Source: an uncultured SAR86 cluster bacterium
Lineage (GTDB): Bacteria > Pseudomonadota > Gammaproteobacteria > Magnimaribacterales > D2472
DNA length: 47,087 nt
Assembly (NCBI GenBank): GCA_902517505.1
Contig: CABYCL010000007.1
Span: forward strand, 1-47,087
Direction of reading: 5' to 3'
Below the pieces are notes generated by a model. That model saw only the letters and a list, made by a program, of their open reading frames with translations. It ran no database searches and was not told the origin of the DNA. This document shows, piece by piece, positions 44,705 to 47,087 of the stretch. Every line of letters starts with the position of its first letter. Positions within the stretch are counted from its first letter, which is position 1. The position numbers were made by a program, and so were the translations under genes.

Positions 44705-44805
44705 ATTATCTGATTAGAATTTCATAAGTAGACTTAATTAATGATTTTAAATGTCTATATTTAGTACATATTTTTGTGTCTTTTTTGTAAAACTTGGGTT
44801 AATAT

Positions 44806-44818
44806 ACTCCTCCGGAGT
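44806..44818 (+). promoter_or_regulatory. Inverted repeat upstream of the surface-protein gene
   Basis: ACTCC-TCC-GGAGT forms a perfect 5-3-5 dyad, flanked by TATA on both sides, in the 44705-44882 gap. TAATAT (44800-44805) directly precedes it and may be a -10 element, though its -35 is unclear. The dyad is GC-rich in an otherwise AT-rich spacer. It has no T-run, so it is not a terminator; an operator is possible. Confidence 0.35.
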
Positions 44819-44882
44819 TGTATATCATTAAATTTTATGTGAATATAGCTACTATAAATAGCGTAAAAAAGAGGAAATAGCT

Positions 44883-46760
44883 ATGAGAAAATTTTATCTA
44901 ATTTGTTTAACAATTTTATCTATTGGTGTTACTGCTGAAGTAAGTCCTGAGAGAATGACTCAGATAGAATCCAGCGTTGGATCTATGAGCATAAATGAGC
45001 TTCGAGATAGAAGAGCATTTTTAATCAATGAGCAATCTTATCTTCAAGACACACAAGCTAGCACACAAAACCCATCTACTGTAAAAAGTACTTCTGGTAG
45101 ACTTGCTGAGATTAGAGCAGAATTAAGCGCTATTCAAAAAGCACTTATTGGTATTGTTGGTATTGCTGCAATTAGTGCACTTACAGATGACGATTCCAAA
45201 GATATGGTTCCTCCAGTCATAACTGTTACTGGAAGTGATCCAGCAACTGTTGAATTAGGTGGAACATACACTGACGCTGGAGCAACTGCAAATGATGCAC
45301 GTGACGGTTCAACTGCAGTATCCTCATCAGGTTCAGTTGATACTAATACAGTTGGATCATATACAATTACATACACAGCTACTGATAATAGTGGTAACAC
45401 TGCTACAGCCACTAGAACTGTTAATGTTGTTGATACAACAGAACCGGTAGTGACTGTAACAGGTGATAATCCTGCAACAACAGAATTAGGTGATACCTAT
45501 ACTGATGCTGGTGCAACTGCAACCGATGCATCTGGCACAGTTGAAGTAGTTACTACTGGAACTGTCGATACAGACACAGTAGGCGAATACACATTAACAT
45601 ATACAGCAACTGATGCTTCAGATAATTCTGGAACAGCGACAAGAACTGTTAACGTTACTGATACAACATCTCCTGTATTTACATCATCATCAACATTTAC
45701 AGTTGACGAAGGTGTAATAGCAATTGGAGTTGTTTATGTAACTGACGCTGATACTGTCACTTTCACAATTGGGGCTACAACTAGTCCTGCATTACAGGGT
45801 ACCGGAGCTAAATCAAATCTTGTAATAGCAAGCGATGGGCATTTATCTTTTGATATAATTCCTGACTATGATGCACAAGTAACTGACGTTCAGTTATATA
45901 CTGGTGATGGTGTTCTTCCACTAGATATGTTCGGTACTGAAACTAAACGAGCAAGAACATTATCAGGCTATACAACTGGTGCAACAATGGACTTCACTGC
46001 AACAGTTACAGCTACTGACGCTTCTGGTAACACTGCAACACAAGACATTACTGTTCAGGTAAGAGATGTTGGTGGTGTTGATGATGATGCATCTACAGGT
46101 ACAGGTACAGGAACAGGTACAGGAACAGGTACAGGTACAGGAACAAGCACTGGTACATTTGGTGAAAATCCTGACCTCGGTGTTCCTCAATTTACAACTA
46201 CAGATACATATGTAGTTGACGAAGGCGTAATTGCGATTGGGGTTGTTGTTGCAACTGTTGAAGCAGCTCCTGCTGATAAACTAAGCATCACCTATACTAT
46301 TGGAGCGACATCTGGTCCTGCAGTTCAAGGTAATGGAACTCAATCAAACCTTATAATAGCAAGCGATGGGCATTTATCCTTTGATAAAGCTCCTGATTAT
46401 GATACACAAGTACCCGACATTACGTTGTATGACACATCTCTCGCACAAGCGAACTGTCCTCAACTTAATGGAAGCCAAGTATGTTATGAGACTGAAAGAA
46501 CAGATTCATTATCTGGCTATACCACTGGTGCAACAATGGACTTCACTGCAACAGTTACAGCTTCCGCACTTATAGAAGGTACAGGCATTGTAAAAACTAA
46601 CGAACAAAACATTACCGTTCAGGTAAGAGACGTTGGTGGTGTTGATGACGATGCTGGTACAGGTACTGGTACTGGAACAGGTACAGGTACAGGTACAGGT
46701 ACTGCTACTAATACAACAGTTGACTCATCATCAACTGGAGCAGCAATTTCAGGCGGGTAA
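44883..46760 (+). CDS. Secreted repeat-rich Ig-like/cadherin-like surface protein
   Basis: A 625-residue exported protein. The signal peptide is residues 1-18 (cut after GVTA). A coiled-coil-like helix (~25-85) ends in a hydrophobic stretch IGIVGIAAISAL. Two Ig-like HYR/DUF5011-type domains follow (~110-184 and 185-260), each with V.VTG..PAT.ELG.TYTDAGATA and YT.TYTATD. Two cadherin-like domains come next (~265-400 and ~432-590) that are near copies at DNA level, each followed by a Thr-Gly repeat linker. The end STGAAISGG has no anchoring motif. The Shine-Dalgarno GAGGA (44871-44875) is unusually strong for this window. Likely adhesin or matrix protein, given the export genes upstream. No known function is assigned. 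Confidence 0.8.
   Translation: MRKFYLICLTILSIGVTAEVSPERMTQIESSVGSMSINELRDRRAFLINEQSYLQDTQASTQNPSTVKSTSGRLAEIRAELSAIQKALIGIVGIAAISALTDDDSKDMVPPVITVTGSDPATVELGGTYTDAGATANDARDGSTAVSSSGSVDTNTVGSYTITYTATDNSGNTATATRTVNVVDTTEPVVTVTGDNPATTELGDTYTDAGATATDASGTVEVVTTGTVDTDTVGEYTLTYTATDASDNSGTATRTVNVTDTTSPVFTSSSTFTVDEGVIAIGVVYVTDADTVTFTIGATTSPALQGTGAKSNLVIASDGHLSFDIIPDYDAQVTDVQLYTGDGVLPLDMFGTETKRARTLSGYTTGATMDFTATVTATDASGNTATQDITVQVRDVGGVDDDASTGTGTGTGTGTGTGTGTSTGTFGENPDLGVPQFTTTDTYVVDEGVIAIGVVVATVEAAPADKLSITYTIGATSGPAVQGNGTQSNLIIASDGHLSFDKAPDYDTQVPDITLYDTSLAQANCPQLNGSQVCYETERTDSLSGYTTGATMDFTATVTASALIEGTGIVKTNEQNITVQVRDVGGVDDDAGTGTGTGTGTGTGTGTATNTTVDSSSTGAAISGG
45702..46656 (+). repeat. Tandem duplicated cadherin-like domain (two diverged DNA copies)
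   Basis: The unit beginning GTTGACGAAGG at 45702 recurs at 46214. Long stretches match base for base, for example AGCAAGCGATGGGCATTTATC (45829 region and 46359 region), the CAACAATGGACTTCACTGCAA segment, and CAGGTAAGAGA.GTTGGTGGTGTTGATGA at 46056 and 46620. Copy 2 is longer by about 50 bases, with an extra cysteine-containing loop. Recent duplication inside one gene. Confidence 0.85.
46095..46142 (+). repeat. Hexanucleotide repeat ACAGGT/ACAGGA encoding Thr-Gly linker 1
   Basis: Eight consecutive hexamers (ACAGGT or ACAGGA) encode alternating Thr-Gly between the two cadherin-like domains. The unit is a multiple of three, so slippage would change linker length without breaking the frame. Confidence 0.9.
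46656..46703 (+). repeat. Hexanucleotide repeat GGTACA/GGTACT encoding Gly-Thr linker 2
   Basis: Eight hexamers (GGTACA, GGTACT or GGAACA) encode a second Gly-Thr run near the C-terminus, after the second cadherin-like copy. It mirrors linker 1, as expected if domain plus linker duplicated together. Confidence 0.9.
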
Positions 46761-46778
46761 ACTAGACTGATCTAAAAC

Positions 46779-47051
46779 ATGGGCTTTGGAAAAAAAGATA
46801 TTGTAAAAAATATCTCTTCCAAAGCCCTTTTTTCATCTAAAGAAAGTTCATTAGTTTTAGAAGCTTTTCTTAGCTTTATCAAACTAAATAAAAGACACAA
46901 AATAAAGATATCTAAATTCGGAACTTATTATTTACATAAAAGTCCGGCTAGAATAGGCAGAAATCCAAAAACAAAAGAAGAATTTAAAATTCCAGCTTCA
47001 GAGAAGCTTGCATTTAAAGCCTCAAATAAAGTTAAATCTATATTAAATTAA
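46779..47051 (+). CDS. ihfA: Integration host factor subunit alpha-like / HU-family protein
   Basis: A 90-residue DNA-bending protein. KKDIVKNISSKA..SSKESSLVLEAFLSFI is the N-terminal helical pair of HU/IHF. KISKFGTYYLHKSPARIGRNPKTKEEFKIP holds the beta arm with the intact GRNPKT motif and intercalating proline. AFKASNKVKSILN ends the fold. The choice of IhfA rests on the neighbourhood: ihfA follows pheT in many gammaproteobacteria, though here ~6 kb of surface genes intervene. The first 18 codons coincide with a strong intrinsic terminator hairpin (46781-46833). No downstream alternative start preserves helix 1, so coding and terminator truly overlap. The start codon and expression level are therefore uncertain. 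Confidence 0.82.
   Translation: MGFGKKDIVKNISSKALFSSKESSLVLEAFLSFIKLNKRHKIKISKFGTYYLHKSPARIGRNPKTKEEFKIPASEKLAFKASNKVKSILN
46781..46833 (+). terminator. Strong Rho-independent terminator overlapping the ihfA 5' coding sequence
   Basis: GGGCTTTGGAA (46781-46791) pairs perfectly with TTCCAAAGCCC (46817-46827), followed immediately by TTTTTT (46828-46833). The interior also has GATATT/AATATC arms that extend the stem. It starts 20 bases after the surface-protein stop and would end that transcript. It is the only unmistakable intrinsic terminator I found in the window. It lies entirely inside codons 1-19 of the ihfA-like gene. Confidence 0.9.
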
Positions 47052-47055
47052 TAAA

Positions 47056-47087
47056 TGGTCGGGATGGCCGGATTTGAACCGACGACC
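47056..47087 (-). tRNA. tRNA-Pro, 3' part only (cut by window end)
   Basis: Read on the minus strand, the last 32 bases give a T-arm GTCGG-TTCAAAT-CCGGC, a 3' acceptor strand CATCCCG, discriminator A and an encoded CCA (47056-47058 on +). The implied acceptor 5' strand CGGGATG begins with C, a feature of bacterial tRNA-Pro. The anticodon lies beyond the window, so the isoacceptor is not visible. It is convergent with ihfA and the only minus-strand gene here. Confidence 0.75.

Follow-up and report, generated by a model that had tools for sequence, protein, structure and literature searches.

A hairpin under nucleic-acid-level selection in the first codons of ihfA at a surface-gene junction of SAR86 bacteria

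Hairpins at gene boundaries and the SAR86 ihfA locus

In Escherichia coli, hairpins located within a downstream coding sequence protect the upstream mRNA without a U-tract (Dar and Sorek 2018, PMC5927463). These protective hairpins are the closest known system to the element described here, a hairpin (H1) shared at the same codons of ihfA by 22 SAR86 sequences (genera g1 and g9). Like them, H1 is stable and stands at a boundary between two co-directional genes, early in the coding sequence of the second. Unlike them, it occurs in ihfA at a derived location, is known from sequence comparison and is backed by base-pair covariation, and it starts at the start codon, sometimes with a real T-run, instead of ~107 nt into the gene. 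Intrinsic (Rho-independent) partial terminators inside operons also combine a G+C-containing stem with a following T-run, as found in genus g3 and in the window (the whole 47,087-nucleotide stretch of SAR86 DNA analysed), but across the H1 clade the T-run is dispensable while the stem is not, and the element lies within coding sequence. In Bacillus subtilis, interrupted U-rich tracts of suboptimal, NusA/NusG-dependent terminators can still work with Nus factors (PMC8060035); these resemble the H1 relatives with interrupted T-runs, although they mostly have weak stems and a Firmicute host, unlike SAR86. Finally, transcript 3' ends internal to E. coli open reading frames come from intrinsic termination or processing and were found by 3'-end mapping (PMC7815308), whereas the SAR86 case rests on comparative evidence.

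The features of the window that bear on H1 are as follows.

44883..46760, + strand: surface-protein gene with Ig-like/HYR domains and a TG-repeat C-terminus; stop codon 18 nt upstream of the ihfA start
46779..47051, + strand: ihfA-like gene (IHF alpha/HU family), 90 aa, ATG start, the last complete gene in the window
46781..46791, + strand: 5' arm of the outer stem, GGGCTTTGGAA, codons 1-5
46796..46802, + strand: 5' arm of the 7-bp inner stem that caps the outer stem, AGATATT
46809..46815, + strand: 3' arm of the 7-bp inner stem, AATATCT
46817..46827, + strand: 3' arm of the outer stem, TTCCAAAGCCC, codons 13-17, with 11 of 11 pairs to the 5' arm
46828..46833, + strand: T-run TTTTTT directly past the outer stem, shared with a minority of relatives
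47056..47087, - strand: 3' end of a convergent tRNA-Pro(GGG) directly past the ihfA stop codon, truncated where the contig ends

The gene product is a member of PF00216, scoring 74.7 bits where the cut-off is 22.4. Its top NCBIfam model is IHF alpha, but at 61.6 bits it falls below the equivalog cut-off of 111; we nevertheless use the name ihfA because the gene is orthologous to the pheT-linked ihfA of other SAR86 genomes and because this genome has two other PF00216 genes, which we infer to be HU-like and IhfB-like. The hairpin and T-run lie fully within the 90-codon open reading frame (46779-47051), with the fold made by its first 17 codons. The original prediction of an 11-bp perfect stem plus six T wholly inside an HU/IHF-like coding sequence was exact. 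A start codon downstream of the hairpin, which that prediction had named as grounds for its rejection, is excluded: the window gene has no other in-frame start, and none of the 22 H1 genes has one before codon 26. No described RNA family in Rfam matches the hairpin, and a simple terminator scan missed it because that scan accepts loops of 3-8 bases only. The same locus is present in named SAR86 single-cell genomes. A literature search returned nothing on SAR86 with IHF, nor on SAR86 with hypervariable surface proteins.

Selection on the hairpin

The region 46760-46850 folds with a minimum free energy of -26 kcal/mol, a value reached by none of 200 shuffled sequences (z -5.05). When the synonymous codons of the window ihfA were randomised with the protein kept, none of 200 versions folded as well (z -4.94). 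We gathered IhfA orthologues across 107 genomes of the family, reading each one onwards from its start codon. The mean z under the same randomisation was -4.28 for H1, -2.88 for a different hairpin of genus g3 (H3) and -0.40 for pheT-linked orthologues.

The 22 H1 sequences form one IhfA clade (support 91/82), and 96% of the pair cells in their ungapped alignment are standard pairs. Although kinship among these sequences inflates some of the covariation and conservation counts, the separate tests nonetheless agree: 29 double-change cells were observed, whereas shuffled controls gave 9.1 ± 2.2 and slid controls no more than 6, and synonymous codon identity is 0.74 over codons 2-17, against 0.47-0.53 elsewhere. 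The compensatory stem changes among relatives that had been proposed as a check are thus present. The raised conservation of wobble and synonymous sites over the structure is a further likeness to the E. coli protective hairpins, and the corresponding profile is flat in pheT-linked ihfA genes. On a tree built without the hairpin codons, the four most variable kept pairs changed 4, 4, 1 and 5 times, about a dozen independent changes, though a few of these steps are one-sided (G-U) or unpaired.

Each covarying pair joins a silent site in one arm to an amino-acid-changing site in the other, as where Ala16 to Thr (GCN to ACN) accompanies a silent change in a Ser codon (AGC to AGT) or a Gly codon (GGC to GGT), so that the RNA structure has visibly altered a conserved protein. 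Likewise, residue 4 is Gly in all 22 H1 sequences, where the stem has GG, and mostly Thr in relatives. The H1 hairpin is under selection at the nucleic-acid level, and the locus is a clean case in which a protein segment and an RNA structure, both conserved, share one stretch of DNA. We regard it as extremely improbable that the hairpin arose by chance or simply followed from which codons and amino acids the IHF N-terminus uses. The inner stem does partly follow from the D-I...N-I codons usual in the family, but for the outer stem a chance origin is refuted by the compensatory changes, the synonymous-site conservation and the codon randomisation.

A mobile or repeated element was also ruled out: a covariance model searched against 203 genomes of the order matched only at the ihfA start, including weak matches there in G074, G078 and G104, under strict filters that weak copies may escape.

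Gene order around ihfA and hairpins in other genera

In the pheT-linked SAR86 order, ihfA lies behind pheT, overlapping it or nearly so, and has no hairpin; the order in G086, for instance, is rplT-pheS-pheT-ihfA-wza-yjbH. In the derived order, wza-yjbH-surface gene-ihfA, a convergent tRNA-Pro follows 2-12 nt past ihfA in nearly all such genomes, and the spacing between surface gene and ihfA in H1-type genomes is 9-25 nt. All H1 and H3 hairpins occur in the surface-gene arrangement, and pheT-linked orthologues lack them. This confinement marks the hairpin as a feature of the surface gene-ihfA junction, not of ihfA in general, and it bears out the link to the upstream surface gene that the original prediction had drawn. 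Since the H1 clade is a single ihfA lineage, its gene order and its hairpin have a common ancestry. Genomes in which ihfA was found have a single copy, and no second one was seen behind pheT in genomes with the surface-gene arrangement.

Several side observations concern this region. The two positions of ihfA in SAR86, after pheT and after the surface gene, have the wza/yjbH genes on either side of it (loci L091, L093 and L095), and no IhfA was found in one genome that is 91% complete (G001). In the pheT-linked loci examined (L110-L116, L118, L119), the slot before tRNA-Pro usually holds an opposite-strand protein unrelated to the surface gene, an ST/PT-rich repeat protein (MAKFIKSKF...WGTVFxFF).

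Beyond H1, independent hairpin cases are limited to genus g3 and, weakly, genus g6. H3 occupies ihfA codons 17-24 in L039, L042, L044, L052, L053, L056 and L060, starting ~48 nt into the gene and away from the start codon. It consists of GGCTATCtcaaaaaGATAGCC followed by T8-9, with a perfect or near-perfect stem and this T-run in six of seven sequences and terminator scores of up to +40, and synonymous codon identity in these genes peaks at codons 18-33 (0.84), matching its position. By these features H3 is predicted to be a bona fide embedded terminator, near-perfect, stronger than that of the window and almost bidirectional, at another position of the same gene in a sister genus. The genus g6 sequences (L045, L051 and L054) carry a weaker 10-11 bp hairpin at ihfA +73 to +106, in the region encoding QLLDRFIQVVV, followed by TTTCTG. 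Because the hairpin tracks the derived gene order, and the sister genus has a different hairpin elsewhere in ihfA, these genomes offer a natural experiment on how transcript boundaries are handled in compact genomes when genes move.

The proximity of tRNA-Pro raises the possibility of a bidirectional terminator serving mainly that convergent, minus-strand gene, and the g3 hairpins, A-rich before and T-rich after the stem, have a minus-strand T score of 3.44. For H1, however, the T score is lower on the minus strand (1.82) than on the plus strand (2.98), and the hairpin lies more than 200 nt from the tRNA, which makes this reading very unlikely.

Terminator features, translation and the transcript boundary

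The window hairpin has the makings of an intrinsic terminator, a stable G+C-containing hairpin with a U-tract directly after the stem, and its terminator score (d'Aubenton-Carafa formula) is +10.6, whereas among 18 intergenic gaps of the window that were examined the highest score is -21.6. Conservation of the stem does not extend to the T-run: at least five T follow the stem in 8 of the 22 H1 sequences, and the score is positive in only 5. The closest, near-identical relatives (L006-L009) keep the stem intact, with TTATTA, TTATTT or ACATTT in place of the T-run. In 14 of 22 the run is absent or broken, and in the window it is present; in this respect the E. coli protective hairpins, which have no U-tract, may resemble most H1 relatives but not the window. 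T content after the stem is slightly higher than synonymous choice would give, with a mean z of +1.23 and positive values in 19 of 22. Intrinsic terminator is hence an apt term for the window and a few relatives but not for the element that is conserved. Of the proposal that one stretch of DNA is both a terminator and ihfA coding sequence, the part that stands is a structure selected inside a real coding sequence and tied to the upstream surface gene; as a description of the whole clade, a terminator is not supported, the T-run being variable.

The start region of ihfA is unusual in H1 genomes. A Shine-Dalgarno core is absent in all 22, the start codon is GTG or TTG in 9, and the base of the stem is fixed at the start codon in every case, at +2/+3 in nearly all; in L010 (ATGAGTC...GACTCAT) and some other relatives the stem includes the start codon itself. 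The calculated cost of opening this region is 19.5 kcal/mol in H1 genes, against 6.5 in pheT-linked ihfA. These features suggest that H1 holds ihfA translation down, and low ihfA translation is predicted in H1 genomes. No consistently placed -10-like element was found directly upstream of ihfA, and the window sequence holds no separate leader open reading frame between the surface gene and ihfA.

These data bear on the earlier reading, in which an intrinsic terminator attenuates ihfA unless a translating ribosome covers the hairpin. The score and six-T run of the window, together with the slight T excess across H1, are what this reading would lead one to expect, but the loss of the T-run with the stem intact and the scarcity of positive scores run against it. 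The proposed relief by a ribosome found no support: with no Shine-Dalgarno sequence, a start codon that abuts or joins the stem and an opening cost of ~20 kcal/mol, the initiation signals are poor and ribosome-driven relief is therefore improbable. We consider this reading quite unlikely, and the least supported of the three that concern the junction itself, the other two being a transcript-boundary element and a lock on the ihfA start codon.

On balance, the hairpin is probably a transcript-boundary element in the first codons of ihfA, one that would form the 3' end of the surface-gene mRNA and throttle ihfA. The 9-25 nt gap upstream of ihfA and the convergent tRNA-Pro immediately downstream leave no space for a separate boundary. 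The surface-gene RNA would fold into the hairpin just past the surface-gene stop codon, and the hairpin would then supply the 3' end of that mRNA. Where a T-run follows, as in the window, a minority of relatives and the distinct g3 hairpin, partial intrinsic termination may occur; where none follows, the hairpin may instead block 3'-5' exonucleases. ihfA output would be kept low, since few transcripts would pass the hairpin and translation would have to begin at a start codon that adjoins the stem and has no Shine-Dalgarno sequence. From sequence comparison we thus infer 3'-end formation, protection and reduced ihfA expression, and a boundary element would account for the variability of the T-run, for the association with gene order and for the distinct solution in g3. 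Counting against it, four surface-gene-linked orthologues (L021, L022, L049 and L050) have no clear hairpin.

The main rival to the boundary element is start-codon locking as a dedicated control of ihfA, in which the stem would limit initiation and a trans factor (possibly IHF/HU acting on its own mRNA) or co-transcriptional timing would set the output. The H1 base sits at the start codon in 22 of 22, whereas the E. coli precedents lie farther off (107 ± 56 nt); this proximity would fit such translational control equally well, as do the missing Shine-Dalgarno sequence, the high opening cost and the retention of the hairpin even without a T-run. However, pheT-linked orthologues manage without a hairpin, the g3 hairpin lies off the start codon and carries T8-9, and there is no known binding partner. 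We therefore hold this alternative to be possible but distinctly less probable than a boundary element. A more elaborate form appears unlikely: a cis-acting RNA regulator of a nucleoid protein, whose locked ihfA start would open under a specific condition or factor (e.g. IHF/HU feedback on its own mRNA). Such a switch would couple the packaging of the chromosome to the expression of surface proteins, and the change of Thr4 to Gly would be a reshaping of the coding sequence that preserves it.

Two further observations concern the surface gene. Its C-terminal TG repeat tract (46637-46712 in the window) is highly variable among relatives in both length and flanking residues. A palindrome, ATATACTCCTCCGGAGTTGTATAT, lies in its leader (44802-44825 in the window) and also occurs in a close relative (L090/L098); it may be an operator or a leader hairpin.
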